Below, one piece after another: positions 15,966 to 38,767 of a DNA stretch of 59,722 bases (positions are counted from its first letter, which is position 1; each line of letters begins with the position of its first letter). The stretch is from Candidatus Binataceae bacterium (GTDB lineage Bacteria > Desulfobacterota > Binatia > Binatales > Binataceae). Location of the stretch: assembly GCA_035500095.1 (NCBI GenBank), contig DATJXN010000134.1, positions 1 to 59,722 of the forward strand, given 5' to 3'. The notes under the pieces were generated by a model that had not been told where the DNA came from, searched no databases, and saw nothing but the letters and a program-made list of their open reading frames with translations. A program made the translations under genes and the position numbers.

Positions 15966-16715
15966 ATGCTGCTGACACCTTCGCGAGGGTGCCTGCGTCT
16001 CGCATTGTGCGCGCTCGTCATCGCCGGATGCGCGGCCTCGGCTTCCCGGGGCGACGTCAAGAACGTTTTTCAAGCATCAAACATGTCGCCGGAGCAATGC
16101 CTGAGCGCCGGTGCGCTTCAAGCGTCGAACGACCCGCAGAGCTATCACATACAGTCCGGTGATCAGTTGGCGATAAATTTCTATCTCAATCCCGAATTCA
16201 ACGACGAAGTCCCAGTGAGTCCCGACGGCCATATAACGCTGCGGTTGATCGGGTCGGTGCCGGCGGCGGGTCTGACGCCGTCGCAGCTGGCCGCAAATCT
16301 CGACAAGGCCTACCTGACCGAGCTCCGCTCGCCCGACGCTGCGGTGATCGTGAAGAACATGCCGGGACGCCAGGTTTATGTGCAGGGCCAGGTCAACCAT
16401 CCAGGCGCGTTTCCGCTGGAACCCGGAATGACGGCTTTGCAGGCGCTGGCCGACGCGGGCGGAGTGACCTCGGACGCGGCGAACAACAGCGTGGTGCTGA
16501 TCCGGCGCGACGCGTGCGGCCGGCCGACGGGAGAACGGCTCGATCTGGCGAGCGCGGTCGATAATCCGGACAAGGGCGAGGACGCCGCGCTGATGCCATA
16601 CGACGTATTGGTAGTGCCGCGCAGCAGGATCGCGAACATGGATCTGTTCGTCCAGCAGTACATCCGCGGCCTGCTGCCGGTCGAGCCATATCTCTCGCTG
16701 ACACCGGGGATCTGA
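15966..16715 (+). CDS. Wza-like polysaccharide export lipoprotein
   Basis: From ATG 15966 the 249-residue product has a lipoprotein signal (RLALCALVIAGC, Cys at residue 22), a Poly_export/SLBB domain starting at YHIQSGDQLAINFYLNPEFN, and an SLBB-type repeat beginning at RQVYVQGQVNHPGAFPLEPG. Wza-family proteins form the outer-membrane channel for capsule or EPS export, working with the Wzz/GumC protein encoded next. An alternative ATG at 15879 has a good GGAGAG site but would place about 29 residues before the signal sequence. The family's C-terminal amphipathic helix is represented only by VQQYIRGLLPVEPYLSL. This is the first gene of the EPS operon. Confidence 0.9.
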   Translation: MLLTPSRGCLRLALCALVIAGCAASASRGDVKNVFQASNMSPEQCLSAGALQASNDPQSYHIQSGDQLAINFYLNPEFNDEVPVSPDGHITLRLIGSVPAAGLTPSQLAANLDKAYLTELRSPDAAVIVKNMPGRQVYVQGQVNHPGAFPLEPGMTALQALADAGGVTSDAANNSVVLIRRDACGRPTGERLDLASAVDNPDKGEDAALMPYDVLVVPRSRIANMDLFVQQYIRGLLPVEPYLSLTPGI

Positions 16716-16763
16716 CCCGCGCGCAAGCGTAGAGGGGAATTTGCCCGGAGGAGTGGTACGGCT

Positions 16764-18278: not shown

Positions 18279-18289
18279 AGAGCGGCGCG

Positions 18290-19363
18290 ATGTACCATCA
18301 GCACTTCAAACTGAGCGGCCCGCCGTTCCAGTTCACACCGATGCCGGGCGCGCTCTACCTGAGCAAGACCCATCGAGAGGGTCTGGCCGCGCTGGAGTGG
18401 AGCCTGCTCCACGAACCGACCGGGTTCACGCTGCTGGTGGGCGAAAGCGGGATCGGCAAAACCACGCTGGTCTGCTCGATCCTGGCGCGATGCTACGCCA
18501 ACGTCCGCAACGCCTATATCTCCAGCCCGAAACTGGACTTCGAGCAGATGATGCAGGTGATACTGGCGCAGCTTTTCCGCGCTGCAGCCGGCCAATCGAG
18601 GCTTGAGTTGAGCGAGACTTTCCGACAGCTGCTCGACGATCTTACGCCCGGCGAGCGCCTCGCGATAATCATCGACGAAGCCCAGGACCTCGCGGATGAG
18701 ACGTTGGAAGAATTCAGACTGCTCTCCAATCTCGACACGGGCGCCGAGCGCCGCTTGCAAATCGTCTTCGTGGGCCAACCGGAGCTGACCGAGCGCCTGG
18801 CGGAGCCGCGGATGGCCGCGCTCAACGACCGAATCGGCTCGCGCGCGCGGCTTACGCCGCTCGAGCCTGATGAGATGCTCGACTATATCGACAGCCGTCT
18901 GCGGACCAAGGGCGGCACGGCAAAAAAGATATTCGCTGCGGCCGCGCTCAAACACCTGGTGCGGCACAGCAGTGGAATCCCGCGCCGCGCAAATGTGCTC
19001 TGCCACAACGCTTTGCTGTTCGGCTTCGCGGCAGGCCGCACGAGGGTCAGCCTGAAGATGGCCACCGCCGCGGTCAGCGAATTTGAAGTTCCGCTCGCCG
19101 GCAAATCGAGCACCCGCAAACAACCGCAGGCCGCGCCGCAGCCGAAGAGCCTCGCACAGGCAGCGCTCGCCGTGGGTGTTCTCGTCCTCGCCGCGCTCGG
19201 CGCTTTATACGCCTGGTCGTCACAAAGCTGGCCAACGTCGCGTGAAACGCACGCGACCCAGCGTGGGGAAGCGCTGCGGCCGCAGACCGCCCCCGTGGTT
19301 CCCGAAACGGAAAAGTTGCCGGCACTGCCGCTGCCGGCGCTGGAGACGATCATCGGCGGCTGA
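18290..19363 (+). CDS. ExeA-like AAA+ ATPase with C-terminal membrane anchor
   Basis: Starting at ATG 18290 (12 bases after the previous stop) the 357-residue protein opens with YHQHFKLSGPPFQFTPMPGA, typical of ExeA/GspA-like ATPases found in EPS operons. Walker A is GESGIGKTT (51-59) and Walker B is LAIIIDEAQDL (D129, E130). After a helical lid region it has one membrane segment (AQAALAVGVLVLAALGALYAW, about 286-306) and a Pro-rich periplasmic tail. Related ATPases are a standard part of EPS loci linked to XrtA exosortase, but no exosortase or PEP-CTERM protein is seen here. It may energise or gate assembly of the exporter. Confidence 0.85.
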   Translation: MYHQHFKLSGPPFQFTPMPGALYLSKTHREGLAALEWSLLHEPTGFTLLVGESGIGKTTLVCSILARCYANVRNAYISSPKLDFEQMMQVILAQLFRAAAGQSRLELSETFRQLLDDLTPGERLAIIIDEAQDLADETLEEFRLLSNLDTGAERRLQIVFVGQPELTERLAEPRMAALNDRIGSRARLTPLEPDEMLDYIDSRLRTKGGTAKKIFAAAALKHLVRHSSGIPRRANVLCHNALLFGFAAGRTRVSLKMATAAVSEFEVPLAGKSSTRKQPQAAPQPKSLAQAALAVGVLVLAALGALYAWSSQSWPTSRETHATQRGEALRPQTAPVVPETEKLPALPLPALETIIGG

Positions 19364-19390
19364 CATCGCCGAATCGTGGTGCACAATCAC

Positions 19391-20164
19391 ATGAGCAAAT
19401 ACTACGAAGCGATCACCCGGCCTCCAGTAGCCGATCGGCCGCCTGAACCAGATCGTGCCGAGGAGATGTCGGGCGCCAACACCTCGCTGCTCAACAGCGG
19501 CTACGGCGCGCCTCACTCGCTGGTCACGCTGCCGACCCTGGAACACGTGCCGGCGGCGGTCGCGCGGGCGGGCGCGATCCGCAACCTGACCGAGCGGCTC
19601 GCGCCGCTGGCGGTGGTCGAGAGGTCTACGCGATTGCTCGTGACGGGATGCCGTCCGGGCGATGGCGTCTCGACGGTGGCGACCGCGATCGCAATCGATA
19701 TCAGCCAGCGCCTCGGGTTGCGCACGGTACTGGTGGACGCGCACCTGCGCCATCCATCGCTCCATCGCCTTTTTCAGCATCCCGGCCGCCGAACGCCCGA
19801 GCTCGTCCTCGACGGTGCGTTGCAAATCCGCGCAACCGAATGGCCGCGGCTGGAACTGGTGACCTGCTGCGTCTCGAATCCGGATTCCCAGCCGCAATTG
19901 TTTGTCGAGTTCGAGATGCTCCTTAGCGCGTATCCGGCCGTGATCGTCGACCTCGGGGTGACCCGGCTCGACGCGCGCATGCTGCCGCTCGCGCGGCCCT
20001 CCGATCCTATCCTGATGGTCGTGCGCCAGGGACACACGGAGCGGCGCGAGCTGGCGACGACCGCAAGCGCGCTGCGCACGGCGAGCCGCGCTCCGGCCGG
20101 CGTGATCCTCAACGATGCAACCGATCCGGTTGCAAAGCCAATACGGAGACTGTTGGGAAGATGA
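19391..20164 (+). CDS. CpsD/CapB-like tyrosine-kinase homologue with degenerate P-loop
   Basis: The product (257 residues from ATG 19391, which gives the familiar MSKYYEA start) has the fold of bacterial tyrosine kinases that pair with Wzz proteins. Walker A' is conserved as VLVDAHLRHPSLH (D116) and a Walker B-like VIVDLG follows. The P-loop reads GCRPGDGVST (86-95), with valine where the phosphate-binding lysine should be (V93), and there is no C-terminal tyrosine cluster. It is therefore unlikely to be an active kinase and may serve as a structural partner of the GumC-like protein. It overlaps the next gene by 4 bases (ATGA). Confidence 0.8.
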   Translation: MSKYYEAITRPPVADRPPEPDRAEEMSGANTSLLNSGYGAPHSLVTLPTLEHVPAAVARAGAIRNLTERLAPLAVVERSTRLLVTGCRPGDGVSTVATAIAIDISQRLGLRTVLVDAHLRHPSLHRLFQHPGRRTPELVLDGALQIRATEWPRLELVTCCVSNPDSQPQLFVEFEMLLSAYPAVIVDLGVTRLDARMLPLARPSDPILMVVRQGHTERRELATTASALRTASRAPAGVILNDATDPVAKPIRRLLGR

Positions 20165-21273
20165 ATCTATTTGCGGATGCGACGGAAGTTGCGGGGGTTC
20201 GGGAGCTCGAGCGCAATGGCAGCGCGAATACGCATGCGGTGCGACGGCTGCGCGGCGTCGCGGTGGTCGGCCTGGGTTATTGGGGACCCAACTGGGTGCG
20301 CAATTTTTATCAACTGCAGTCCGCCGATCGGATTATCGCTTGCGACCTCGACCGCCGCCGCTGCGAACGCGTCCGCGGCCTCTTTCCCGCTGCCGAAACC
20401 GCTTTGCGCTTCGAGGACGTGGTCGCGGATCCGGACGTCGAGGGCGTGATCATCGCAACTCCGGTCAGCAGCCATTACGCGATGGCGCGCCGCGTGCTGG
20501 AGGCGGGCAAGTCGGTGCTGGTCGAGAAACCGCTCGCGATGTCGCCGGCGGAGGCCGCCGATCTGATGCGGATCGCGCGGCGGCGCGGCGGTGTGCTGAT
20601 GGCCGGACACACGTTCGAGTACAGCGCGCCGGTGCTCAAGATTCACGAGGTCATTTCCGCGGGCGAACTGGGCGAGGTCCTATACGTCAGCTCGATTCGA
20701 GCCAACCTCGGACTGTTCCAGCACGACGTAAACGTGGTCTGGGACCTCGCCACGCATGACATCTCGATCATCCTGATGATCATCGGACGGATGCCGGAGG
20801 CGGTGAGCTGCCAGGGGCAGAGCCACTACGGCAACGGAGTCGAGGACGTGGCGCTGCTCGGATTGCACTTCGCGGACAATGTGATTGCGTTTGTCCACGT
20901 GAGCTGGCTCGACCCCAACAAGATCCGCCGTACCACCATCGTCGGGTCGCGCAAGATGCTGGTGTACGACGATACAGCGCCCCAGGAAAAGATTCGCATC
21001 TACGACAAGGGCGTCGATGTGCAGCGCTACTACGATACCTTCGGCGATTTCCAGTTCTCTTACCGCTACGGGGACATCCAGATTCCGCGGATCGAGGAGG
21101 CAGAACCGCTGAAGGCCGAGTGCGAGCACTTCGCCGACTGTATCCGCAGCGGCGCCGCGCCGCGCACCGACGGACTTTCGGGTGCGCGCGTGGTGAGCGT
21201 GCTGCACGCCGCCAATCTTTCGCTGAAAAACGGGGGACGCAAGGTCGCGGTGGAGAACCCCGCGCGCGTGTAG
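20161..21273 (+). CDS. Gfo/Idh/MocA-family sugar-nucleotide dehydrogenase (WbpB/WlbA-like)
   Basis: The 370-residue enzyme has an N-terminal Rossmann fold with GLGYWG (37-42), the EKPLA signature, and a Gfo/Idh C-terminal domain with the HDI segment in [11 protein letters not shown]. Next to a hexapeptide acetyltransferase and a DegT aminotransferase, the expected role is oxidation of UDP-GlcNAcA at C3 (WbpB/WlbA reaction), the first of three steps toward UDP-2,3-diacetamido-2,3-dideoxyglucuronic acid. The assignment rests on context as well as family; other 3-keto sugars are possible. Its start codon overlaps the stop of the CpsD-like gene, so translation is coupled. Confidence 0.8.
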
Positions 21274-21275
21274 CT

Positions 21276-21806
21276 ATGGGCGCCGATATCCAGATGCCTC
21301 CGTACGCTTGCGTGGCCGGCGACGTGCGCCTTGGCGCGCGCGTGCGGCTCAGCCCGTTCGTCAATCTTTACGGCTGCGAGGTCGGCGCCGACACCCGCCT
21401 CGGCGCGTTCGTCGAGATCCAGCGTGGCGCCACGATCGGCCGGCGCTGCAAGATCTCGAGCCACAGCTTCATCTGCTCCGGCGTAACGATCGAGGACGAA
21501 GTGTTCGTCGGCCACGGCGTGGTCTTCATCAATGACCGCAAGCCCCGCGCGACCACGGGCAACGGCACGCCGCAAACCGAGCGCGACTGGAAGATGGAGA
21601 CGACGACGGTGCGGCGCAAAGCGTCGATCGGAAGCGGCGCGGTGATCCTTTGCGGCGTCGAAATCGGCGAGGGCGCGATGATAGGCGCCGGCGCGGTGGT
21701 GACGCGCAACGTGCCGTCTGCCGCGGTGGTCGCCGGCAATCCGGCCCGCGTACGGGACGTAGATACGTTCCAGGTGGATACGTCCTATGACCAGACGAAG
21801 AAGTGA
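21276..21806 (+). CDS. Left-handed beta-helix sugar N-acetyltransferase (WbpD/WlbB-like)
   Basis: The 176-residue product (ATG 21276, two bases after the previous stop) is built of hexapeptide repeats such as [33 protein letters not shown] and [20 protein letters not shown], ending in the common [10 protein letters not shown] motif. This is the acetyl-CoA-dependent acyltransferase fold of WbpD/WlbB, which acetylates the 3-amino group made by the neighbouring aminotransferase. A histidine in the [12 protein letters not shown] block is in the right place for the catalytic base. The order dehydrogenase-acetyltransferase-aminotransferase matches known diacetamido-uronate loci. Confidence 0.85.
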
Positions 21807-21813
21807 GGTTTCA

Positions 21814-23022
21814 ATGCAGATCAAATTTGCCGATTTGGTTTCACAGACTGCGGAAGTTCGCGAACGCGTCGAACGCGAACTGGTGAAAATCCATCTGAGT
21901 GCGGGCTACATAGGCGGCCCCCAGGTAAAAGCCTTTGAGGAGGAGTTCGCCGCTTACCTCGGCGTGCGCCACGTCGTCTCGGTTGCCAACGGCACCGATG
22001 CGCTCCGCCTCTCGCTGCTCGCGATCGGAGTCGGACCGGGCACCGAGGTGATTACGTCACCGATGACTTTTATCGCGACTGCCGCGGCGATCCGCCAGAC
22101 CGGCGCGCGACCGACGCTTGTCGACATCGATCCTGAGACCTGCAACATCGACCCTGACGCGCTGCGCCGCTACCTGGTCGAGCGGCGCAGGCGCTCGCCG
22201 CACGGCCTGCGCGCGATCGTCCCGGTACATCTGTACGGCTTGCCCGCGGCGATGCGCGAGATCCAGGAAATCGCGATCGAGTTCGGCCTCAGGATCGTCG
22301 AGGACGCGTGCCAGGCGCATGGCGCGTCGTTTCATGACGGCCAACGCTGGCGCTACGCGGGAACGCTGGGCGCCGCCGGATGCTTCAGCTTCTATCCGGG
22401 GAAAAATCTTGGCGCATGGGGCGACGGCGGCGCGATCGCAACCGACAGCGACGAACTGGCGGAGCGGGTGCGATTGCTGCGCGACCACGGGCGCCTTTCG
22501 CATTACGCACATCAGGACTACGGCTACAATTCGCGGCTCGATGCGGTCCAGGCAGCGGTGCTGCGCGTGAAGCTCGAACGGTTGGCGGACTGGAACCGGC
22601 GCCGGCGTGAAGTAGCGGAACTCTACCGGGAACTGCTCGACGGCACCGGGCTCGTGCTGCCCGTCGAACCCGAGGGGTTCGCCTCGGCGTACCATCTCTA
22701 CGCGATCCGCAGCCGCCGGCGCGACGCGATTCGCCAGACCCTGCTCGGCCGAAACATCGAGTGCGGCATCCACTATCCCGTGCCGCTGCATCTGCAGCCG
22801 GCCTGCCGCGACCTTGGTTATCGGCCCGGAGATTTTCCGGTTAGCGAACGCATCGCCGACACCGAGCTGTCGCTTCCGATGCATCCGCACCTGACCGACG
22901 CTGAAGTGCGATGCGTGGCCGAGTCCGTGATCGCAGCCGCGCGCAAGCCGCCAGTCATATTCGCCGGCGAACATCGCCGAAACCCGGCCGTCTCTGCACT
23001 CCCCCCGGAGCATGGCGAGTGA
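21814..23022 (+). CDS. DegT/DnrJ/EryC1/StrS PLP aminotransferase (WbpE/WlbC-like)
   Basis: ATG 21814 follows a GAGG site by five bases. The 402-residue enzyme has the full sugar-aminotransferase pattern: ANGTDALRLSL (PLP phosphate contact), D164 in IVEDACQAHGA (PLP ring nitrogen), and the Schiff-base lysine K197 in FSFYPGKNLGAWGDGG. The C-terminal YPVPLHLQPAC block binds the nucleotide sugar. With the two preceding genes it should convert the 3-keto uronic acid to the 3-amino sugar, using glutamate as donor. The last ~25 residues (FAGEHRRNPAVSALPPEHGE) look like an unconserved extension that runs up to the next start. Confidence 0.85.
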   Translation: MQIKFADLVSQTAEVRERVERELVKIHLSAGYIGGPQVKAFEEEFAAYLGVRHVVSVANGTDALRLSLLAIGVGPGTEVITSPMTFIATAAAIRQTGARPTLVDIDPETCNIDPDALRRYLVERRRRSPHGLRAIVPVHLYGLPAAMREIQEIAIEFGLRIVEDACQAHGASFHDGQRWRYAGTLGAAGCFSFYPGKNLGAWGDGGAIATDSDELAERVRLLRDHGRLSHYAHQDYGYNSRLDAVQAAVLRVKLERLADWNRRRREVAELYRELLDGTGLVLPVEPEGFASAYHLYAIRSRRRDAIRQTLLGRNIECGIHYPVPLHLQPACRDLGYRPGDFPVSERIADTELSLPMHPHLTDAEVRCVAESVIAAARKPPVIFAGEHRRNPAVSALPPEHGE

Positions 23023-23025: not shown

Positions 23026-24462
23026 ATGTTCGCCGGCGAACTACAGAGACAAAAGGCACTGTTCGCAGCCTGTGACGGCCTCGCCCTGATGGCCGCGTTC
23101 GCGGTGGCGCTGATGCTGCACGATCCGTCGGGCGCGATGGAGGGGCGGCTCCTGCGGAACAATCCGGTCCTGCTTTGTGTCGACGTGCTGGCCATCGTGT
23201 GCCTGTGGGTCATGGTGTTTCGCGCCTGCGACCTTTACCGGATGCGCAACGGCGGCCTGCACGAGTTAGCCGGGATCGTCCGCGGATGCTCGTTTGCGGC
23301 GCTCTTGATGGTGCTGGTCGGATTCCTCGCGCACCTGGATGTTTCGCGGCTCACCGTGATGGTGGGTTATCTGCTGAGCATTCCGGCCGTCATCGTGGAA
23401 CGGATGGCGACGCGCCAGTGCATCCGGCGCTTTTACGCCAATCCCAAGAATGCGATTCCGCTCGTATTGATCGGATGCAACCGGTTTGCGCGCTACCTGT
23501 GTGATCAGATTCTCGACGAGATGACGCCCTACGAGATAATCGGCTTTCTCGACGACGATTGCGAGGTGCGCGAGTACCGCGGCTGTCCGGTACTCGGCCC
23601 CGCCGAACGCCTGGGCGAAATCGCCGCGCTCTACCCCTCCCTTGAAGCCGCGGTCGTGCTGCCCGACGCGACGCGCGAGCGGCAGGAAAGGATCATGGGA
23701 CTGTGCGAACGACAACGCCTGCGCTGGTGGCTGATGCCGTCGCTCGCGAAGTGGCCCAACGGCGGCCTGCGGGTGGAAATGTTCGGCGTGGTGCCGCTCA
23801 TCAGTCCACTCGGCTCGAATATCGAGGGCCTCAACTTCGCGCTCAAGCGCGCCTTTGACGTGGTCGCGGCAACGCTGATTCTCGCCGCCTCCGCGCCAGT
23901 GCTGGCCGTGGGCGCGCTCGCGATCCGCCTCTTCGACCCGGGCCCGATCCTGTTCCGCCAGACGCGCGTCGGAATACGCGGGCGGCTTTTCAACATGCTC
24001 AAGCTGCGCACGATGCGAGCGTCCGGCGACGACTCCTCGCATCGCGACTACGTGCGCCAATGGATCCGTCAGGGCGATGCTGCGGCGCGCAATGGCGACG
24101 GCGGCGATCGCGTGTTCAAGCTCACTAACGACCAGCGCGTGACCCTGGTCGGACGATGGCTGCGCCGCTTCAGCATCGACGAACTGCCGCAACTCATAAA
24201 CGTGCTTCGCGGCGAGATGAGCCTCATCGGGCCGCGCCCCGCGCTGCCATACGAGCTGGAGCTCTACGAACCCTGGCATCTCCGGCGTCTGCAGGCGGCG
24301 CCTGGAATAACCGGCTTATGGCAGGTCAGCGGCCGCAATCGTCTTTCGTTCGACGAGATGGTCCGGCTTGACGTGGAATATATGCAGGGCTGGTCGTTTG
24401 CCGGCGATCTGCGAATCCTGGCGCGAACTGTTCCCGCGATGTTGCGCGGAGGCGGGGTATGA
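23026..24462 (+). CDS. Undecaprenyl-phosphate sugar phosphotransferase (WbaP/WcaJ-type initiating transferase)
   Basis: The 478-residue protein has about four N-terminal membrane helices, a cytoplasmic CoA-binding-like domain ([17 protein letters not shown]), a fifth membrane segment ([19 protein letters not shown]) and the bacterial sugar transferase domain. Its signature blocks are all present: [60 protein letters not shown] and [13 protein letters not shown]. It attaches the first sugar phosphate of the repeat unit to undecaprenyl phosphate at the inner membrane. The gene starts three bases after the aminotransferase stop and overlaps the flippase gene by 4 bases, so this is one operon. 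Confidence 0.93.
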
Positions 24463-25973
24463 GCAATCCGTCCGCCCCGCCCGCTGCCCAGCGGCGAGAA
24501 CCGCGTCATTCGCTCTGGGAGGCGGTCGCGCGCAGCGTGCGCGACAACGTAATCGCCGAGTTCGTAGTTCAAGGCGTGCGCGTGGGCGGCTTCGTGGTGC
24601 TGGCGCGCGCGCTCCGCCCCGAAGACTTCGGCATCTTCAGGATCCTGCTCGTAGTCAGCGTGTTCGCGACTCTCAGCAATGACGCGGGAATCACAGACGC
24701 GCTTGTGCAGCGCAAGGAGCTGACCGCGGCGCATGAAGCGACGGCCTGGTGGCTGGGCATGGTGGCAGCGACCTGCTCGGTCCTTATCCTGTATGCCGCC
24801 GCGCCTGCGATCGCGGCGGCCATGGGTACGCCGAATCTGACCGGTGGTGAACGGCTGCTCTGCTTGCCTATCCTGCTCGACGCAACCACGGTAGTCCCCG
24901 CTTCTCGCCTCCGGCGAGCGCTCAACTTTACCGCCCTCGCGATTGCGGATATCGCGGCGGAAATCGGCTTCATTGCGGTGGCCCTACTGGTGCTGTGGCG
25001 CGGGATGCCGGCGTGGGCATTGGCAGGAGGTTTGGCCGCGCGTTTCGCGGTGCACGCGATCGCAATCTGGATTGCGAATCCCGGATTTCCGCGCGGATTG
25101 CCGCGCAGGCAGGCAGCGTACGATTTCGCGCACTTCTCCATCGCCGCCTGGGGCGGCCGAATCATCTACGTCCTTTCCTCGAACGCGGACTACCTGCTCG
25201 TCGGGCGTCTGCTCGGGAGCTCGGCGCTCGGTTTCTATTCGATGGCGTGGGACGTGCTGCGCTTCGTACCCGACCGCCTGCATCGGGTCGCCGGACGCGT
25301 TACCTTTCCCGCCTTCTGCATCCTGCAGGACGACCGCGAAGCGCTCTCCCGCGCTTATCTCGACTTCTTCGACTACATGGCGCGGGTGGTGCTTCCGCTG
25401 GCGGCGTGCGCGGCGATCGCGGCCCCGGAAATCCTGGGCACGATCTACGGTCCGCAATGGATTCCCGCGGCGCTGCCGATGAGGCTGCTCGCGCCCGGCC
25501 TGGCGCTGAGCGGCTTGCGGCTCGGAATCGGCTCGGTCTTCTTCAGCAAGAATCGCCCGGTGATTGACATGTACCTCCATGGCGTGCGGCTGGGCTTTCT
25601 AGTCGCCGCGGTGCTGGGCCTGGCGCGATTCGAACTCCTGGGCGTGAGCGCCGGGATGAGCGTGGTCGAGGGCGTGGTGAGCGTTATTGGCCAGGCGCTC
25701 GCGTGCGCGCTGCTCGGATTGAGTTTCCGCAAGCTCGCGTGGTCCGCGATGCCGGCGCTGAGGCTCACTGCGCTGTGCGCGCTGGCAACGATCGGCGGAA
25801 GGACGCTCGCGATCTTTGCTTCGAGCGGCGGCCCGACAATCCTGCTCGCCGCGGCGTTGCCGCCGGCGCTCGTTTACCTCTGGATGGAGCGCTCGAACGC
25901 GATGGATCTCATCGCGAAAGCCTTTGTTCCGTCCGCTGGCGCGCGGCCCAAAGCGTCGGAGGCGCAAGCATGA
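24459..25973 (+). CDS. Wzx-type lipid-linked oligosaccharide flippase
   Basis: The 504-residue polytopic protein (about 12-14 membrane segments) belongs to the MOP/polysaccharide transporter superfamily. The N-terminal RSVRDNVIAEFVVQGVRVGG segment and the central SNADYLLVGRLLGSSALGFY block are typical of WzxC/RfbX-like exporters. It should flip undecaprenyl-linked repeat units to the periplasmic face for polymerisation. Its ATG overlaps the preceding TGA. The matching polymerase would be the O-antigen ligase-like protein encoded on the other strand at 34-36 kb. Confidence 0.9.
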   Translation: MSNPSAPPAAQRREPRHSLWEAVARSVRDNVIAEFVVQGVRVGGFVVLARALRPEDFGIFRILLVVSVFATLSNDAGITDALVQRKELTAAHEATAWWLGMVAATCSVLILYAAAPAIAAAMGTPNLTGGERLLCLPILLDATTVVPASRLRRALNFTALAIADIAAEIGFIAVALLVLWRGMPAWALAGGLAARFAVHAIAIWIANPGFPRGLPRRQAAYDFAHFSIAAWGGRIIYVLSSNADYLLVGRLLGSSALGFYSMAWDVLRFVPDRLHRVAGRVTFPAFCILQDDREALSRAYLDFFDYMARVVLPLAACAAIAAPEILGTIYGPQWIPAALPMRLLAPGLALSGLRLGIGSVFFSKNRPVIDMYLHGVRLGFLVAAVLGLARFELLGVSAGMSVVEGVVSVIGQALACALLGLSFRKLAWSAMPALRLTALCALATIGGRTLAIFASSGGPTILLAAALPPALVYLWMERSNAMDLIAKAFVPSAGARPKASEAQA

Positions 25974-26082: not shown

Positions 26083-26940
26083 ATGAAAAACTATATCACC
26101 ATAACTCCAGCCCGGGACGAGGAGCGGCTTCTCCCGCGACTGCTGGTTGCGATGGTTGCGCAGACGCACAAGCCCGGGCGCTGGATCGTAATCGACGACG
26201 GGTCGTCCGATCGCACTGGCGAGATTCTCGATCAAGCTGCGCGCTATCATCCGTGGATCCAACCGGAGCATCTGCCGCGCGGCCGCGCGCGCGCGCCGGG
26301 CGGCGAGTCGGTGATCATGCGCTTTCTGCCGCGCGACGCGTGGGAGGGCTACGACGCAATCCTCCGGCTGGACGCCGATTTGTCCTTCAAGCCTGAGTTT
26401 GCCGAGCTGCTGCTGGCGGAATTGGAAAAGGACCCGCGCCTGGGCATCGCCGGCCCGACCCTGTACGAAATCCATGGCGCGCGCTGGCGCGAGGTTCCCG
26501 CGCCGTCGTTTCACACCCGCGGCGCAGCCAAGATGTACTCGACCGCCTGCTTCGCGGCGATCGGAGGGCTGGAAGCCGGACTCGGCTGGGACACGATCGA
26601 CGAAGTGCGTGCGATGATGCTCGGGTTTGGCACGCGCAGCTTTCGGCAGATCCGCGCCTATCATCATCGCCCGCAGGGCGCCGCCGGCGGGCTCTGGCGG
26701 GGACGCAAGGCGGCCGGCAGGGCGGCATATAACGTCGGCTATTCGCCGCTTTTCCTCATGGCGCGTGCGCTCAGGCTCGCGCTCAAGTGGCCGCCGATAA
26801 TCGGCGGCCTCGGGCTTGCGGCGGGATACCTGGAGGGTGCGATGCGCCATTCGCCGCGGCCAGTCTCGCCGGCACTGGTCAGATTCGTGCGTCGTCAACA
26901 GCTACGCAGACTGCTCTTGATGGAGTCGGTATGGCGTTGA
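26083..26940 (+). CDS. Family 2 glycosyltransferase
   Basis: The 285-residue enzyme has a GT-A fold: YITITPARDEERLLPRLL, the WIVIDDGSSDRTGEIL block, and the DxD-type motif RLDADLSFKPEF. In the acceptor region WDTIDEVRAMMLGF carries the acidic ED-like residues. A C-terminal hydrophobic stretch (ALKWPPIIGGLGLAAGYLEG) suggests membrane association. Donor and acceptor cannot be deduced. It begins 110 bases after the flippase and overlaps the next gene by 10 bases, so it belongs to the same transcript. Confidence 0.88.
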   Translation: MKNYITITPARDEERLLPRLLVAMVAQTHKPGRWIVIDDGSSDRTGEILDQAARYHPWIQPEHLPRGRARAPGGESVIMRFLPRDAWEGYDAILRLDADLSFKPEFAELLLAELEKDPRLGIAGPTLYEIHGARWREVPAPSFHTRGAAKMYSTACFAAIGGLEAGLGWDTIDEVRAMMLGFGTRSFRQIRAYHHRPQGAAGGLWRGRKAAGRAAYNVGYSPLFLMARALRLALKWPPIIGGLGLAAGYLEGAMRHSPRPVSPALVRFVRRQQLRRLLLMESVWR

Positions 26941-28160: not shown

Positions 28161-29363
28161 GTGGCCCGCTTTCTCCTCATTGCATACACGACCTATGTCC
28201 ACGACGGCCGCGTTAAGCGTCACGCGGAGGCGCTGGCCGAACGCGGCGATCATGTCGACGTGCTCTGTCTGGACAGTGGCCATAACGGCACGATCGGCGG
28301 CGTCAACGTGATTGGCCTCAAAATGCCGCGCTATCGGGGCGCCAGCCGCTCCAGTTACATGCGCAGCTACCTTCGGTTTTTCGCTAAAGCCTCATGGGCG
28401 GTGGTACGGCTGAGCTGGGCGAAACGCTATGACGTCGCGATCGTTTGCACCATGCCTGACGCGGCTGTGCTGTGCGCGCTGCCGGCGCGATTGCGCGGCA
28501 GCAGGATCGTGCTGGACATCCACGACACGATGCCGGAGCTCTATCAGGACAAATTCGGCGGGCGGCGCGGGGCGATCGGCGCGCAGCTCTTGATGCTGGA
28601 GGAGCGCACCAGCGCAGGGTGCGCCGACACGGTGCTGGCCGTGCACGCGCTTCACCGCGCACGCCTCATCCGGGCGGGTGTCCCTGAGCGCAAGATCAGA
28701 ACCGTGATGAATGCGACCAACCCTGCGCTTTTCAGCGCCGCGCCGGCGGCGCGCAAGCGCGCCGATGGAAAGTTCGTGCTGGCCTGTCACGGCACGGTGA
28801 CACATCGGCTCGGACTGGATATCGCGATCGAAGCAATAGCGCTCGCGCGAACGCAGGTTCCCGGCCTGCGCCTGATGGTAATCGGCGATGGCGACCATCT
28901 CGACGCGGCACGCCGGCTCGTCGCGCGCAGGCGCCTCGAAGGATGCGTGAGCTTCGTCAACCAGGTGCCGATCGACGAACTGCCGAGCCTACTTTCCGAG
29001 GCTGACGCCGGGCTGGTGCCTAATCGCGCAAGCAACGCGACGCATCTGATGCTTCCGGTCAAGTTGCTCGACTACACGGCGCTCGGCGTTCCGGCGATCG
29101 CCGCACGCCTGCAGACTATCGAACACTATTTCGGCGAGCGCGCAGTGCGATTCTTCGAACCGGGAGATCGCGACGATCTGGCGGGAGCGATCGTCGAGCT
29201 CTACCGCGACCCGTCGCGGCGCGCCGAGCTTGCGCGCAACGCCCGCCGCGCCGTCGAAAGAATTGGATGGCCGGTCCAGCGCGCGGAATACTACAGCGCG
29301 GTCGACGCGCTGCTGCGCAAACCGCCAGCGGCGGAAAGCTACGGCCCGGAGCGTGCGGCGTGA
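28161..29363 (+). CDS. GT4/GT1-type glycosyltransferase
   Basis: The 400-residue protein (GTG start) has the GT-B architecture: N-terminal RFLLIAYTTYVHDGRVKRHA, a linker, and the C-terminal nucleotide-sugar domain with HGTVTHRLGLDIAIEAIALA, VIGDGD and the VPNRASNATHLMLPVKLLDY block that replaces the usual E-x7-E region. Retaining transferases of this family add single sugars to lipid-linked acceptors in the cytoplasm. It lies nine bases after the deacetylase-like gene. Donor specificity cannot be read from the sequence. Confidence 0.87.
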   Translation: MARFLLIAYTTYVHDGRVKRHAEALAERGDHVDVLCLDSGHNGTIGGVNVIGLKMPRYRGASRSSYMRSYLRFFAKASWAVVRLSWAKRYDVAIVCTMPDAAVLCALPARLRGSRIVLDIHDTMPELYQDKFGGRRGAIGAQLLMLEERTSAGCADTVLAVHALHRARLIRAGVPERKIRTVMNATNPALFSAAPAARKRADGKFVLACHGTVTHRLGLDIAIEAIALARTQVPGLRLMVIGDGDHLDAARRLVARRRLEGCVSFVNQVPIDELPSLLSEADAGLVPNRASNATHLMLPVKLLDYTALGVPAIAARLQTIEHYFGERAVRFFEPGDRDDLAGAIVELYRDPSRRAELARNARRAVERIGWPVQRAEYYSAVDALLRKPPAAESYGPERAA

Positions 29364-29395: not shown

Positions 29396-30196
29396 GTGAA
29401 ACATGGGGAGACATTAGTCGTCGGCCTCGGCGAGGTCGGCGGGGCGCTGGCGGAAGTCATCGAGCACCACCAGCCTGTTCTGCGTCACGATATCGAGCCG
29501 CGCGAGTTCAACGCGCCGATCGCCGTGATGCATATCTGTATTCCATTCCGCGCGAGCGCGGAGTTCGAGGCCGCGGCGTGCGGCTATATCGAACGGTTCG
29601 ATCCCGCGTTAACCATCGTCAACAGCACGGTACTGCCCGGAACCACCAGCGCGCTCGCGCGGCGGACCGGCAAACCCGTCGCCTACAGTCCTGTGCGCGG
29701 CAAGCACGTGCGGATGGCGCAGGATCTTCTCAATTACGTCAAGTACGTGGCCGCACCCGCTAAACAAACCGCCGCTGCCGCCGAGCGCCATTTCGCGGAC
29801 CTCGGGATGAAGACGCGGCGGATGGACAGGCCGGAGACACTCGAATTGGCCAAGCTCGCGGAGACAACCTACTTCGGCGTGCAGATCGCGTTCGCCCAGG
29901 ACCTCGATCGTTACGCTCGCCGCGTCGGCGCCGACTACGAACAGGCGATCGATTTTTTCGAGGAGGTGCCTTTCCTGCCTCGCACGCGGTACTTCCCGGG
30001 TTTTATCGGTGGCCATTGCGTCATCCCGAACATCCAATTGCTGCGCAGGATTGCCGGCTCCGCAATGCTCGACGCGATCCTCGAGTCAAACGCGGCGCGC
30101 GCCCAGGAGGTGCCTCCGCCCGCGCAAGAAACCGGGAAGCGTCAACCGTCGCGGCGCGAATCGGCCAGGCGCAATGGCGACCTGCTTTCTAGTTGA
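29396..30196 (+). CDS. Short UDP-sugar dehydrogenase-like protein
   Basis: GTG 29396 is chosen because GGAGG stands seven bases before it. The 266 residues contain an NAD-binding start (LVVGLGEVGGAL), the IVNSTVLPGTT block, a central K153 in LAKLAETTYFG, and the catalytic-cysteine motif FIGGHCVIP (C208) of UDP-glucose/UDP-GlcNAc dehydrogenases. Full-length enzymes have about 420-440 residues with a C-terminal UDP-binding domain, which is missing here. It could still supply the uronic acid for the WbpB/D/E-like trio, or work on an unusual substrate. It overlaps the next gene by 23 bases. The last 40 residues are charged and unconserved. Confidence 0.7.
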   Translation: MKHGETLVVGLGEVGGALAEVIEHHQPVLRHDIEPREFNAPIAVMHICIPFRASAEFEAAACGYIERFDPALTIVNSTVLPGTTSALARRTGKPVAYSPVRGKHVRMAQDLLNYVKYVAAPAKQTAAAAERHFADLGMKTRRMDRPETLELAKLAETTYFGVQIAFAQDLDRYARRVGADYEQAIDFFEEVPFLPRTRYFPGFIGGHCVIPNIQLLRRIAGSAMLDAILESNAARAQEVPPPAQETGKRQPSRRESARRNGDLLSS

Positions 30197-31622
30197 CAGC
30201 AAGGAGACGGGCGCCAACTCGACCGTTGCCGGGTTGGCGCGCGTGCGCGGCGCACGCCTGATGCATTGCCGCGGCGCCGAGGCGTTGCCGGGCGAGGCCG
30301 CGCGCCAAGGGATCGTCGCGATCGGCGCGTCGCGTTTGCGGCAGCTTCCCGTCTATCAGAGATCGCAGCTCGCGAGCGCGGTCGGCCAGGGCGCGACGCT
30401 CTACGTTCGTGGCATCGCTCCAGGCGCCGACAAGCTCGACCTTGCGCCGTTCGCTCCCCTCGACGCGCCGCTAGCGCCCGAGCGCCGCGCGGTCGGATAC
30501 AGGTTCACGGAAAGCCCGATGCTTCCGGCGGCACTCCGTGGCGAAGAAGCCACAGGCGGCCTGTTCAATTCACCGGGTGTCGAGTGCGGCTTTATCCCGG
30601 GGGCTGAGGAGCTGCTCGTCGTGCGGCACGTTGACGGTGTCAAGCGCGCCGCGATTTTCGCGCTTCAATACGGCGGCGGATGCATCATCCATGACCTGAA
30701 TCCGGAGGACGAGACCGGCGCCGACGCGCCCATCGTCGCACGCCTGGCCGCGCGCGAGGCGCGCCCTCTGTTTGCGGGCGCCTTGCTTGCGGTCAACCGA
30801 GCGGCCGGAATCGACCCGGAGTGTTTGCCGCCTTTCAATCTCACGATTGACGACCGGCCGATAAACTATGACCACTTCAACACCATGCCCGTCTCCGCCC
30901 TGCTCAGCCATATCGAGCGTCTGTGCCCGGGGACGCACACGGATTTTGCCTGGACGCCGCGCCATGCGCACCCAAGCCGCAGTTACGTGGAAGCGATGAA
31001 ACAATTTTCGATCGGTTTCGCGTGGCATGGGCTATACCGTCACGTCGACCATCGCGTCATCGCCGATCCCGCGGCCGACCTCGCGCGGGGTCAGCGCACG
31101 GTCGGACGAATCGAGCGCCGTTTCGGCATCCGCTTTCAGCCGATCATGATTTTCCCGTTCGAGCGCGCAGCGCCGGGACAGTTTCCGATGCTCACGCGCG
31201 CGGGATTTATGGCCAGCGTCGAGGAGCCGCGCCTTGCCTCCTGCTCCGATCCGTATTTTCCCGCATCGCCGGGCGACGCGAGGGCCGCGCGCGTCGATGC
31301 GAGTTCAGGCTTCGTCGTTTTGCATCGATATCGTGCCGTCTCGTTGACGCGCGATCGGATGCTCGCGATGGCCGTGCTCGGCCTGCCTATAATCGCCCTC
31401 GCGCATCCCGAGGACCTGGGGCTGCGGCGCTTTTCGCGCTTCTGGGATAGAGGCGGCGATCTCTCGCATTTCGACGAGGTTCTGAAGTTCGCTTCGTCCA
31501 AAAAAATGCCGTCGCGGTCGCTCCACGATATCGCCGCCCAGGTGATCGCAGCCGAAGCCCCGCACGCGACACCGGCCAACGGCGCGCAGATTTACGCGAC
31601 ACAGCCGGCAGGCGGGTCATGA
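30174..31622 (+). CDS. Conserved EPS-locus protein, possibly polysaccharide deacetylase-like
   Basis: The 482-residue protein has no signal peptide. Its N-terminal half looks like a glutamine-amidotransferase-like or unassigned alpha/beta fold. In the second half NLTIDDRPINYDHFN, then TDFAWTPRHAHPSRSYVEAM and KQFSIGFAWHGLYRHVDHR resemble metal-binding stretches of NodB-type deacetylases (Asp pair, then His-rich loops), but a clear H-x-x-x-H is missing. I therefore assign only a possible deacetylase-like fold. It starts inside the dehydrogenase gene and ends in an ATGA overlap with the DUF262 gene, so all three are translationally linked. Confidence 0.55.
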   Translation: MATCFLVDSKETGANSTVAGLARVRGARLMHCRGAEALPGEAARQGIVAIGASRLRQLPVYQRSQLASAVGQGATLYVRGIAPGADKLDLAPFAPLDAPLAPERRAVGYRFTESPMLPAALRGEEATGGLFNSPGVECGFIPGAEELLVVRHVDGVKRAAIFALQYGGGCIIHDLNPEDETGADAPIVARLAAREARPLFAGALLAVNRAAGIDPECLPPFNLTIDDRPINYDHFNTMPVSALLSHIERLCPGTHTDFAWTPRHAHPSRSYVEAMKQFSIGFAWHGLYRHVDHRVIADPAADLARGQRTVGRIERRFGIRFQPIMIFPFERAAPGQFPMLTRAGFMASVEEPRLASCSDPYFPASPGDARAARVDASSGFVVLHRYRAVSLTRDRMLAMAVLGLPIIALAHPEDLGLRRFSRFWDRGGDLSHFDEVLKFASSKKMPSRSLHDIAAQVIAAEAPHATPANGAQIYATQPAGGS

Positions 31623-32401
31623 ACGAAGACCTTGCGGGCAACTTCGGAGCGAAGGATGAAAACGCAAACCACGAGGCTGGTTACGCGTACCGCGTTATCA
31701 CGGTGCGCGAGGCGGTCGAGCGCTGCGTATCCGGCGAGTGGGACATTGCGGAATTTCAGCGGCAGTTTGTGTGGCGCCCCTCGCAGGTATGCGCTCTTGC
31801 CGACTCGTTGTGGCGCAATTATCCGTTCGGCTCGCTACTTCTATGGCGCGCACAGGAAGAAGGCAATGGCGAGCGCCGGGTGCGATGGTGGATCGCCGAC
31901 GGCCATCAGCGCCTTACTTCTCTTTGCATCCTGTCCGGGCGCGAGCCGATCTGGTTCAGGCGCAGAGCAGCCGAATCTCCCCGGCGAATGCCGCCAGGAT
32001 TCGAGCCCTGTTTCGATGCCGGCGCCGATGCGGCCGCGGCCTTCGTCGCCACGCGCGCAGGCGACGCAGCGCGCGATGCGCGATTGGTTCCAGTCAGCCG
32101 GCTGCTGGCGCTCGATCCGGATGAAGCACGCGGCATAAGCGAACTGCATAAACTCGTCGAGACCTTGAAGACCGAGAAGGGCTGCCTCGGGATGGACCTG
32201 GCGGAACTTTACCGGCGGCTAAGCCGAGTCAGCATGCTTGATCGGCGAGAGCTGGCGGCAACTCTGGTCTGGCAAGAACGCAAACACGTGCTCGAGATCT
32301 TCGCCCGGCTCAATAGCAGGGGAATGCGGTTTCGAAGGCTGCTGCTTAAACTCGCGATGGAAGAAATCCCGACCGCGCTTCGTGGAGCCCGCCGCGGTTG
32401 A
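31619..32401 (+). CDS. DUF262 (ParB/Srx-like) domain protein
   Basis: The 260-residue product carries the DUF262 pattern: ITVREAVERCVSGEWDIAEF followed by QRQFVWRP, ALADSLWRNYPFGSLLLW, the WWIADGHQRLTSL motif (the usual D-G-Q-Q-R appears as D-G-H-Q-R) and the late IFARLNSRGMRFRRLLL block. The fold is a ParB-like nucleotide-binding or nuclease domain, known from type IV restriction (GmrSD) and other defence proteins; the C-terminal DUF1524 HNH nuclease is absent. Its ATG overlaps the stop of the preceding EPS gene, so it is co-translated with the EPS operon, an unexpected setting. Function here is unknown. Confidence 0.8.
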   Translation: MNEDLAGNFGAKDENANHEAGYAYRVITVREAVERCVSGEWDIAEFQRQFVWRPSQVCALADSLWRNYPFGSLLLWRAQEEGNGERRVRWWIADGHQRLTSLCILSGREPIWFRRRAAESPRRMPPGFEPCFDAGADAAAAFVATRAGDAARDARLVPVSRLLALDPDEARGISELHKLVETLKTEKGCLGMDLAELYRRLSRVSMLDRRELAATLVWQERKHVLEIFARLNSRGMRFRRLLLKLAMEEIPTALRGARRG

Positions 32402-32555: not shown

Positions 32556-33266
32556 TTAACCCTCTCCCTCCGCGAACAAAGTCTCCTCGGGCATGCGATC
32601 GAGCCGATCCAGGTCGGGGACTCGGCCTTCGCGAAAGTTGCAGCGGCGCACGTTTCTGACGCCGGCCTCTTCCATCAAGGCCTTCAAAAGTACGAAATCA
32701 TATTGGTAAGCGCGCCTGTATAAGTCACCTCTCGGTTTCTTCGGATAGAAAAAATACTCCAGGGCTTGCTCGCGCTTTCCCTCGCGATACAGGGCGACGA
32801 TGTATTCGAGATCGGGGACGGCAATTCTCATAGTGCCGTTATGTTTCAGAACTCGGACGGCCTCTCGGAGAAGCGCCAAAGCGTCATCACGATAGAGGTG
32901 ATGCAGCATGTGGGAACAAAAAATGAAATCGACGGAAGAGTCCGCGAGAGGTATGCCATATTTCAGGTTGTGAAAGACAAACCGATGCTCACGCACCAGA
33001 TTCGTGAACTCGTCGGGGGAAAAATCAGCTCTAACGTTTGTCAGTGGAAGCGCTACATTTAGCACGGACCGCGGCATTTTCACGAACAGCGTCTTTATAC
33101 TGCCATCGATATTGATCCATCCGGGCGCGACATAAAGCCCGCTGCCTAGATTGAGCTTGACCGGTTCGCCCAACGGCTCGATTCGCTGCCATTTGCGCAG
33201 CCAACCAGAACAATGCTCCGCACGATCTATCGTCTTACGCACTAAGTTATCCAGTGCTGTCTTCAT
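32556..33266 (-). CDS. SAM-dependent methyltransferase (class I)
   Basis: The 236-residue protein has motif I VKLNLGSGLYVAPGWINIDG, a central DFIFCSHMLHHLYRD (motif IV region with acid and base), and VLKHNGTMRIAVPDLE. These are typical of methyltransferases next to EPS or LPS glycosyltransferases that O-methylate a sugar. It lacks membrane segments. It is convergent with the EPS operon and less GC-rich than it, so it may have been acquired separately. The substrate is unknown. Confidence 0.85.
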   Translation of the reverse strand: MKTALDNLVRKTIDRAEHCSGWLRKWQRIEPLGEPVKLNLGSGLYVAPGWINIDGSIKTLFVKMPRSVLNVALPLTNVRADFSPDEFTNLVREHRFVFHNLKYGIPLADSSVDFIFCSHMLHHLYRDDALALLREAVRVLKHNGTMRIAVPDLEYIVALYREGKREQALEYFFYPKKPRGDLYRRAYQYDFVLLKALMEEAGVRNVRRCNFREGRVPDLDRLDRMPEETLFAEGEG

Positions 33267-34205: not shown

Positions 34206-35714
34206 CTAGGCCGACAGTAAGGCGCTCACGGCCTTCGGCAGCGCGGCCAGATCGGCCTTCCGATCGGCCTCTCGCTGGCGCAGCGTGCGCACCCGGTAAC
34301 GCTCTGCGATGGCCCAGACCAGGCCGAATAGCAGCGCGACCGCTCCGCCGCCGAAATCGCCCAGCAGTTGTTCCGAGAGGTTGTTGATCAGTATCGGCAC
34401 CACTATCAGGAAAAATATAGGTTTGAGGCTCCACGGATCCTCTCGCTGCCTGAGGGCGAAGACCCACGGCCGCAGCACGATATATAGCCACAGCGCAGTG
34501 GCGGGAATTCCTACTCCGATCGCGTGCCCCAAATAGCCATTGTGCAGCGAGCTATGCGGTCCCATGTCCCACGGTCCCCACCAGATCGGGAAATACCTGC
34601 TGTCGAACACGGCACCCGCCGTTTCGTACCCATAGCCCAGGATGGGCTGGTCGCGAATCCTTTGAATAACGTAGTCCCAGATGTCGGTGCGTCCGGTCAG
34701 AGTGGTGACGTCGCGCCCGACGTAGGCGAACATCCCGCTGCGAAGCATCACCAGCGCAATTGCGAGCGATATTCCGGCGCACAGGAGAAATCCCCTGAAA
34801 CGCCATCTCCAGATCGCGAAAAGGCCGGCCCCGAGCGCGACCGCAACGAAGGACGAACGCGAGTCCGCGAGCACGTCGAGCGCCACCGCCGCCGCGATCA
34901 CCAGGGCAAGCATCAAGCGGCCGCGTCTTTGCGCCGTTCGCCAGCATGCGGCCGCGAGGCCGACCACCAGGACCATGAATGTGCCGAGGTCGTTAGGTCC
35001 ATCGAACAGGCCGCGAAAGCGATCGAGTCCGCCCACGATAATGCCTGCTTTAGCCATGCTGGCCAGTTCGTTGGGTGTGTAGCTTTCGAGGGGGCTTTGC
35101 CAGGCAACGTCGTGCGGCAATATCGGCGCGGTTGCCGCCACCATTATCAGGATTATTGTGCAGGCCAGCAGAAACCGGAGCAAAAGCCGCGTCACGTCGG
35201 CAGGTTCATGGATTTCGAGCACGCAGGCGGCGATCGCAATCATTACCATGACCGCTTCGACGAGACGGGCGAGCGAATACACCGGCGCAAGCGAATACGC
35301 GATCGTTACGGCGCCCCATGCGAAATAAAGCGTATAGATTCTGAATCCTCCGGTGCGAAGGATTCCTGACCGAAGCACGAACGGAAGGGTCGGCAGGCAA
35401 AACAGAGCGAGCGCCACGTAGTGAAATCCCGCGCGAAGAGTCTGATCGCCAAAGAAGGGGGTTTGCACCGACAGGCCGATCAGCGCGAGCGGAAACACCA
35501 GCCATTCATGATGATGCGCGGTATATGTGACGCCGTAGATCACGAGCACGGCCGCGATTACAGTGCAGAGAATCAGGACGGAGGCGGCGTGATTCTCGAG
35601 CGCGACCAGCAGCAGGAGCGCGGCCGCCGAGGCGAACACAGCCGAGGTCGTCCGCGTTGTCGCTCGCGGCTGGAACAAGTCGTGAAAAAGAACCGGTTCG
35701 GAGGAAGTGCTCAT
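34206..35714 (-). CDS. O-antigen ligase/polymerase-like membrane protein (Wzy/WaaL superfamily)
   Basis: ATG 35714 overlaps the TGA of the upstream deacetylase gene (ATGA). The 502-residue protein has roughly 11-12 membrane helices and a large periplasmic loop with the Wzy_C-type block: TGRTDIWDYVIQRIRDQPIL, GYGYETAG, and PHSSLHNGYLGHAIGVG with the conserved histidine. This pattern is shared by O-antigen ligases and EPS polymerases. No other Wzy is seen in the locus, so I favour a polymerase acting on flipped repeat units. Upstream and downstream genes point to one minus-strand transcript. Confidence 0.88.
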   Translation of the reverse strand: MSTSSEPVLFHDLFQPRATTRTTSAVFASAAALLLLVALENHAASVLILCTVIAAVLVIYGVTYTAHHHEWLVFPLALIGLSVQTPFFGDQTLRAGFHYVALALFCLPTLPFVLRSGILRTGGFRIYTLYFAWGAVTIAYSLAPVYSLARLVEAVMVMIAIAACVLEIHEPADVTRLLLRFLLACTIILIMVAATAPILPHDVAWQSPLESYTPNELASMAKAGIIVGGLDRFRGLFDGPNDLGTFMVLVVGLAAACWRTAQRRGRLMLALVIAAAVALDVLADSRSSFVAVALGAGLFAIWRWRFRGFLLCAGISLAIALVMLRSGMFAYVGRDVTTLTGRTDIWDYVIQRIRDQPILGYGYETAGAVFDSRYFPIWWGPWDMGPHSSLHNGYLGHAIGVGIPATALWLYIVLRPWVFALRQREDPWSLKPIFFLIVVPILINNLSEQLLGDFGGGAVALLFGLVWAIAERYRVRTLRQREADRKADLAALPKAVSALLSA

Positions 35715-37135: not shown

Positions 37136-38767
37136 ATGAGCTTGCATCGAGATATCAGTAGGTTGTTGATCGCCGTCGCTGGGGCGGTGTTGATGATTTT
37201 TCAGTCGGGGCTGGTCTCGCAGGCCGGGGCGCAGGAGAAAAAACCCAACATCATCTTCATCATGGGCGACGACATCGGTTGGTCCAACATCGGCGTGTAT
37301 AACCAGGGCATCATGGCCGGCCGCACGCCGAGCCTCGACCGGCTCGCCAACGAAGGGATGCGGTTTACTGACTACTACGCGGAGGCGAGCTGTACCGCGG
37401 GTCGGGCGAACTTTATCACCGGCGAGCTGCCGATCCGCACCGGACTGACGACCGTTGGCCAGGCGGGTTAGCCGCTCGGAATGCCCGATGAGGCTCCCAC
37501 GATCGCGACCGTGCTGAAGTCGATGGGGTATGCCACGGGCCAGTTCGGCAAGAACCATCTCGGCGACCGGAACCAGTTCCTGCCCACGGTGCATGGCTTC
37601 GATGAGTTCTTCGGCTATTTGTACCACCTCGATGCGATGGAGGACCCCTGCCATCGCAACTATCCGCAGGCGCTGCGCGACCGGGTCGGGCCCAGAAACA
37701 TGATCCACTCATGGGCCTCCGACACCGACGATCCGACCGTGCAACCGCGCTGGGGAAAGATCGGCAAGCAGAAGATCGAGGATGCGGGTCAACTCTGTCC
37801 GGAGCGTATGAAGACCGTCGATGACGAGATTCTCGACAACGCGCTCAAGTTCACCGACAAGGCGAGAAAGAATGGCAAGCCGTTCTTTTTATGGCTGAAT
37901 CCGACCCGGATGCATGTCGTCACTCATCTCTCGGACAAATACGAAAAAATGCGCACGCCGGAAAACGGCTGGACCATCGAGGAAGCGGGGATGGCCCAGC
38001 TCGATGATATCGTCGGCGCGGTGATGAAATATGTGAAGGACAACGGTCTGGATGACAACACGATCATCGCGTTCAGCACCGACAACGGCGCCGAGAACTT
38101 CACCTGGCCCGATGGCGGGCAGACTCCCTTTGCCGGCGGCAAAGGCACGGCGCTGGAAGGAGGTTTTCGCGTCCCGGCGATCATTCGATGGCCGGGCAAG
38201 GTGCCGGCGGGCAAGGTCGAGAATGGCATCGTCTCCGGCCTCGACTGGTTCCCGACGTTCGTAGCCGCGGCCGGCTATCCGGGTGATATCGCGGCCGATC
38301 TCAGGAAGGGCAAGAAAATCGGCGGCCGCACCTACAAAGTACACCTCGACGGCTACAACCAGATGGACATGCTTTGCGGCAAGGGTCCGTCGAAGCGCCA
38401 CGAGATTTTTTACCTCACCGAAACCACACTCGGCGCGGTGCGGATAGACGACTACAAGTACCGCTTCACCGATCAGCCGAACGGCTGGCTTGGCGCCACG
38501 GAGAAAGTCGATTGGCCGATCCTGGTCAATCTGCGCCTGGATCCCTACGAGCGGACCGGAATGTACAACGGCAAGGACAATGGGTCGATAGCCTACTACA
38601 ACTGGTTCGCATTCGAGTTCTGGCGCTTCGTGTTCGTGCAACAGGAAGTGGCGCAAGCAGCGCAAACCCTGATCGAGTTTCCCCCGATGCAGAAGGGCGC
38701 CAGCTTCAACATGGCGGCGGTCAAGGAACAGATACAGAAGGCGGTCGCTGCGCACACCGGCGAATAG
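37136..38767 (+). pseudogene. Arylsulfatase interrupted by one in-frame TAG
   Basis: One frame runs from ATG 37136 (CAGGAG upstream) to TAA/TAG 38765-38767, broken only by TAG at 37469-37471 (codon 112). Without it the protein would be 543 residues: signal peptide (LLIAVAGAVLMIF, cleavage near AGA-QE), metal site GDDIGW (D45, D46), formylglycine motif C86-TAGR, the substrate block GQFGKNHLGDRN, and FSTDNGAEN with the second metal pair. Intact family members have Ser-Pro or similar at the break (GQAG-S-P), so TCG to TAG is a likely single change. Sulfatase activity needs the C-terminal part, so the gene is probably inactive. No sulfatase-modifying enzyme is in the window. Confidence 0.85.

Follow-up and report, generated by a model that had tools for sequence, protein, structure and literature searches.

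The window, a stretch of 59,722 nt from Candidatus Binataceae bacterium (contig DATJXN010000134.1), contains an exopolysaccharide (EPS) locus in which a gene for a stand-alone DUF262 protein follows a gene for a deacetylase-like protein, here called the partner (Table 1). The UDP-GlcNAc 3-dehydrogenase-like, DegT and acyltransferase genes of this locus would fit an amino-sugar polymer. Just upstream of the partner lies the gene for a dehydrogenase-like product whose match is restricted to the central part of the family model (TIGR03026 positions 113-300 of 413). Within the export block, the product of 18290-19360 resembles the XrtA/PEP-CTERM-associated ATPase, scoring 198 bits with TIGR03015, which is below that model's cut-off. 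Immediately downstream of the DUF262 gene, on the opposite strand, is a methyltransferase gene (32556-33266); its G+C content is 0.527, compared with 0.62-0.66 in the neighbouring EPS genes. Further along, a gene judged sulfatase-like by eye (37136-38767, plus strand) carries an in-frame TAG at 37469-37471, after which the frame resumes (37481-38767); a pseudogene, recoding and a sequencing error are all candidate explanations.

Table 1. Genes of the EPS locus in the window.
Feature	Coordinates	Strand	Remarks
EPS export and chain length: Wza-like, chain-length determinant, XrtA-type ATPase, tyrosine autokinase	15966-20164	+	
Amino-sugar genes, block of three	20161-23022	+	
UDP-GlcNAc 3-dehydrogenase-like	20161-21273	+	
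Hexapeptide acyltransferase	21276-21806	+	
DegT aminotransferase	21814-23022	+	
Polyprenyl glycosylphosphotransferase	23026-24462	+	
Wzx-type flippase	24459-25973	+	
GT2 glycosyltransferase	26083-26940	+	
Conserved EPS-locus protein, 406 aa	26931-28151	+	no Pfam match; PDA label by eye only
GT4 glycosyltransferase	28161-29363	+	
Short nucleotide-sugar-dehydrogenase-like protein, 278 aa	29360-30196	+	kept in most EPS loci read
Partner: ThuA/GATase-like N-terminus and NodB-type deacetylase C-terminus, NDST1/Agd3/PelA-like	30174-31622	+	assigned from predicted model; ends in ATGA overlap
Stand-alone DUF262 (GmrSD_N, ParB/Srx-type) NTPase-like protein, 260 aa	31619-32401	+	ATG start
Wzy/O-antigen ligase-type polymerase	34206-35639	-	

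A complete DUF262 domain encoded by a short gene

An earlier note on this DNA had recognized the gene at 31619-32401 as encoding a DUF262 protein, and this identity was borne out: PF03235 (GmrSD_N) covers residues 41-237 of the product with an E value of 6e-20 and a score of 72.6 bits against a curated cut-off of 33.2. GmrSD_N is the sole Pfam match in the protein, and the gene is the single PF03235 match in the 3.6-Mb source genome. The domain is complete. A predicted model (pLDDT 79.6) aligns with residues 1-246 of BrxU (7p9k) over 191 residues (Z 14.5, rmsd 3.2), while the matches to SspE (Z 8.7) and DndI (Z 6.2) are weaker and those to ParB, sulfiredoxin, SerK and SbnI are weak (Z 3-4.5, with about 100 residues for the kinase-type matches).

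As previously noted, the gene starts inside the stop of its upstream neighbor, the two sharing the four nucleotides of an ATGA (gap -4, stop codon TGA). The overlap suggests co-transcription and probably coupling, although by itself it is unremarkable because such overlaps are ordinary in the window (5 of 37 same-strand neighbors); the exact 4-nt form occurs in three of the ten short DUF262 copies described below (the window, G018 and G019).

The DUF262 gene and its partner recur together

To define how often this arrangement occurs, the search covered 96 relatives and then, with alignment, all 41 genomes of the family, which are mostly drafts and are identical with the order-level sample. Ten intact short DUF262 copies were found in nine of the 41 genomes (238-294 aa as called, 33-57% pairwise identity). 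Once all ten neighborhoods had been read, every copy proved to lie in an EPS or glycan operon, on the same strand as that operon and together with a homolog of the gene at 30174-31622. The pairing first seen in the window thus recurs, and the proposed recruitment of the domain into EPS biosynthesis is supported. Because the short form recurs intact ten times and no remnant of a C-terminal half was found, we rejected the idea that the short reading frame is an artifact of sequencing or gene calling.

The DUF262 gene lies between -26 and +28 nt from the gene directly upstream in the ten copies (about +11 in G003, taking an upstream ATG visible in the sequence). The DUF262 gene follows the partner directly in six copies (the window, G002a, G003, G015, G019 and G029) and is separated from it by a Wzy homolog in two (G001 and G014). 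In the remaining two (G002b and G018) the order is GT4-DUF262-methyltransferase with the partner further along, so that the methyltransferase, and in G002b additionally a dehydrogenase-like gene, stands between the pair. The linkage of DUF262 and partner therefore outlasts gene reordering. Both genes are present in nine family genomes, the partner alone in seven, an intact EPS-type DUF262 gene alone in none, and neither in 25 (Fisher p 3e-5, in a test that ignores shared ancestry). Distances among partners and among DUF262 proteins are correlated (Mantel rho 0.60, p 0.005), shared ancestry being uncorrected and the partner rows of G001 and G029 partial.

Outside the family, searches of 148 genomes of the class (E cut 1e-12) and of 395 genomes of the phylum (E cut 1e-18, among the matches listed) gave no short copy of the EPS type; matches in both samples were judged on length and coverage. 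Short open frames of 66-273 aa occur in five genomes (G112, G122, G139, G140 and G079) outside the set whose neighborhoods were read. A scan of genome contigs gave eight loci, of which only L029, on a G019 contig, is of the short type.

The distribution is patchy. Nine partner loci lack a DUF262 gene, and a tenth, at a contig end, may lack it too, so the DUF262 gene is dispensable for the operon; on the partner tree its presence takes 3 changes, compared with 6.6 when the labels are shuffled, and several gains or losses are therefore possible. Fragments occur in G003 and G028. The latter (L046:13838-14248) is a decayed EPS-type copy in a genome without a partner homolog, adjoins homologs of genes that flank DUF262 in G002 and G015, and is closest to the G015 copy (72% identity over the last 39 residues). 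Such loci and fragments are what would be expected if the protein were a vestige, a truncated defense gene hitch-hiking with the EPS operon, yet ten frames remain intact at 33-57% identity and their active-site residues are invariant. Moreover, between the window and G001 copies the differences at codon positions 1, 2 and 3 number 82, 68 and 138 (260 codons), and this third-position excess has the appearance of purifying selection. On this evidence a vestige is very improbable.

Origin of the short proteins and the question of defense

In a tree of the ten short proteins and 35 chosen DUF262 domains, the majority of which come from long proteins (rows excluded for being short, broken or duplicated include L056, L059, L061, L065, L068, L073, L075, L082 and L086), the short proteins form one clade (support 99/96, 200 of 200 bootstrap trees), so the C-terminal half was probably lost in a single event. 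The sister group, joined at 100/99, consists of L030, L031 and L087 (566, 566 and 540 aa), which differ from the short clade in having some 300 more residues with an HNH-like motif recognized by eye; Pfam finds no HNH in L030 or L031.

DUF262 is commonly taken as a marker of phage defense. The HNH nuclease part is absent from the window protein, as the earlier note had stated: when the C-terminal half was taken from a full-length relative as a tblastn query, no HNH or C-terminal half turned up near any of the ten loci (best E 0.055). The GmrD/DUF1524 HNH, fused or adjacent, by which a GmrSD-type IV restriction enzyme is defined, is missing here. GmrD (PF07510) was unmatched in six of the nine genomes that carry the short gene, the source genome included, and in the other three its matches each lie on a different contig from the DUF262 locus; a GmrD partner acting in trans was rejected because it was undetected in those six. 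No defense or mobile neighborhood was found, the annotated loci holding EPS genes. Protection of the EPS locus by DNA cleavage, which the earlier note had suggested as one role, is weakened by these results and appears unlikely, given the missing nuclease part and the undetected GmrD.

A broader defense role, in which the protein would be a sensor within the EPS locus with its nuclease encoded elsewhere, or a surface-linked anti-phage gene, draws on the fact that the DUF262 proteins described in two studies are defense components (PMC4619093, PMC10952713). The neighbor of the sister protein L030 is a HEPN_Swt1-DUF499 gene, and the PADLOC candidate models HEC-05, PDC-M55C, NsnA and PD-T4-2_A match (E 5e-19 to 8e-6), though over just 57-78 residues. 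Nevertheless, the GmrD distribution, the lack of an HNH remnant at the loci, the placement of all ten copies within glycan operons and the rewriting of the effector-side helix described below all speak against it, and we regard this role as quite unlikely.

Conserved pocket and rewritten C-terminal helix

Candidate nucleotide residues of the window protein are S63, D94, Q97 and R98, of which S63, Q97 and R98 correspond to S42, Q101 and R102 of BrxU. According to PMC8565348, these BrxU residues are needed for dimer switching and hydrolysis; likewise, R100/R133 of SspE is given as essential for GTP hydrolysis in PMC13251355. S63 and R98 are kept in all ten short copies. Q97 is kept in eight and is H in the other two, even though its BrxU equivalent is required for hydrolysis.

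The motif at residues 94-98, to which the earlier note had drawn attention, is indeed DGHQR. Its D, G and R are kept throughout the short copies, seven of which have DGQQR and two DGQHR; at residue 96 nine have Q and the window alone has H. Because DGHQR is thus private to the window among the short copies and is also present in one of the 35 other DUF262 proteins, the full-length L093, it carries no diagnostic weight, and we discarded it as a functional change.

The last helix distinguishes the clade more clearly, with R237-F238-R239-R240-L241-L242-L243 (RFRRLLL) in place of the LSxxDL found elsewhere. F238 is present in ten of ten short copies versus 0 of 35 other DUF262 rows, R239 in ten of ten versus 2 of 35, and residue 242 is L or V in short copies versus D or E in 29 of the 35. 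In BrxU a linker connects the DUF262 domain with the nuclease (PMC8565348), and we infer that the rewritten helix now serves a different docking surface.

The same data bear on the possibility that the protein is a small-molecule phosphotransferase whose substrate is the deacetylated sugar or some other precursor of the EPS. SerK, SbnI and sulfiredoxin, which the model matches at Z 3-4, belong to the ParB/Srx fold, and a tailoring enzyme beside a deacetylase would suit both the operon linkage and the optional presence of the gene. These matches are weak compared with that to BrxU (Z 14.5), however, and the residues kept are those for NTP hydrolysis in BrxU and SspE. We therefore consider a phosphotransferase unlikely.

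The partner resembles glycan N-deacetylases

The earlier note had described the upstream gene simply as an EPS gene. It does lie in the EPS operon, but that label is unspecific: the gene belongs to a specific unnamed family and is the main partner of the DUF262 gene. The gene caller and the relatives both favor 30174 over 30009 as its start. Homologs occur in 16 of the 96 relatives, all within the family, and in no further genome among the 395 of the phylum. The sequence has no match in Pfam, NCBIfam or PDB sequences, and no secretion signal was recognizable by eye.

The predicted model of the partner (pLDDT 80.1) is ThuA-like in its front part (Z 13.7) and of NodB type in its back part, and matches human NDST1 (Z 19.2, 414 residues aligned), Agd3 (Z 14.5, 426 aligned) and PelA (Z 14.5, with a poor rmsd of 10.7). 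Residues D226, D227, H285, H290, D292, H293 and H411 are invariant, and these Asp and His residues may form a metal site, although their spacing departs from the standard HxxxH.

The pair also occurs in a second genomic context. In G019 it lies outside the standard EPS set, with ComA-like phosphosulfolactate synthase, 2-phosphosulfolactate phosphatase-like (ComB-like), ATP-grasp-like and FemAB-type proteins, and contig C10 of G029 (L107) has a similar ATP-grasp-like gene and neighbors of matching lengths, the partner apparently being divided between two contigs. The ComA-like/ComB-like/ATP-grasp-like set (L044:11862-15594; L107:745-5642, three genes scanned in L107) raises the possibility of a glycan modification of the sulfolactate type. 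A second G019 locus (L104) has standard EPS genes and a partner paralog, with DUF262 absent. The partners of the window, G001, G002a, G019 and G029 form one clade (100/100). Since the pair is found in a different operon, it appears to be a functional unit; DUF262 and partner seem to travel together, and for this reason we assign the role of DUF262 to the partner's step rather than to polymerization.

A nucleotide-sugar sensor or hydrolase, an idea raised by the earlier note, whose NTP pocket would take a UDP-sugar or pyrimidine nucleotide and tune precursor supply, would agree with an operon that produces nucleotide-linked amino sugars and with a fold that binds several NTPs (PMC12704722, the main text of which does not use the word DUF262). 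Against this, the sequence gives no pointer to a sugar-binding site, and in G019 and G029 the linkage is with the deacetylase-like partner rather than with genes for nucleotide sugars; we consider this reading very improbable.

A proposed role in glycan de-N-acetylation

The explanation we favor, at roughly even odds, is that a stand-alone DUF262 clade of single origin was recruited from a defense-type protein into an amino-sugar EPS operon, where it gates glycan de-N-acetylation. The ancestor would have been a longer defense-type DUF262 protein. Its descendant in the amino-sugar EPS operon would bind and hydrolyze NTP in the cytoplasm, and the rewritten C-terminal helix, no longer driving a nuclease, would dock on the deacetylase-like partner or a membrane-bound EPS complex. 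Docking could then gate or license the removal of N-acetyl groups from an amino-sugar glycan while it is lipid-linked or nascent, so that the recognize-hydrolyze-activate logic of SspE and BrxU would be retained with a glycan enzyme in trans as the effector. More tentatively, with a chance a little under even, a domesticated DUF262 switch may control, or complete by phosphotransfer, de-N-acetylation by an NDST/Agd3-like enzyme, outside nucleic-acid defense.

Single-domain GmrS homologs have already been described (PMC4619093), so the short form alone is not new. In a literature search that included few subscription papers, we found no description of an EPS-type DUF262 clade or its link to an NDST/Agd3-like protein, and none joining DUF262 with a polysaccharide deacetylase; for GmrS and capsule there was no title on the subject among the matches listed, and for DUF262 and exopolysaccharide the term in one case belongs to a BREX gene list. 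If the proposed role is correct, a DUF262 match can mark glycan tailoring rather than phage defense, and the protein would be an example of an NTP switch that exchanged its effector, a fused nuclease, for a carbohydrate enzyme in trans. The partner, for its part, indicates a bacterial family that has yet to be described and has the shape of the heparan sulfate N-deacetylase.

Among known systems, the window protein is most readily compared with BrxU, a GmrSD-family type IV restriction enzyme, with which it shares the DUF262 domain at full length and the equivalents of S42, Q101 and R102. Unlike BrxU, it has no DUF1524 nuclease or defense neighborhood, ends in a basic hydrophobic helix and is encoded in a glycan operon. 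With SspE and DndI of phosphorothioate-sensing defense it shares the DUF262 fold, the arginine reported to be needed for GTP hydrolysis in SspE, which is invariant here, and a motif whose DGQQR form is that of SspE/DndI; in contrast to them it has no nuclease domain, ssp and dnd genes are absent among the annotated neighbors, and the structural similarity is low (Z just 8.7 and 6.2). The partner, in turn, has the order of ThuA/GATase-like and NodB-type domains of the glycan N-deacetylases NDST1, Agd3 (CE18) and PelA, and for Agd3 PMC7229062 describes a similar layout of ThuA-like and deacetylase domains. Identity to these enzymes is about 10%, and the likeness comes from the predicted model, there being none at the sequence level.
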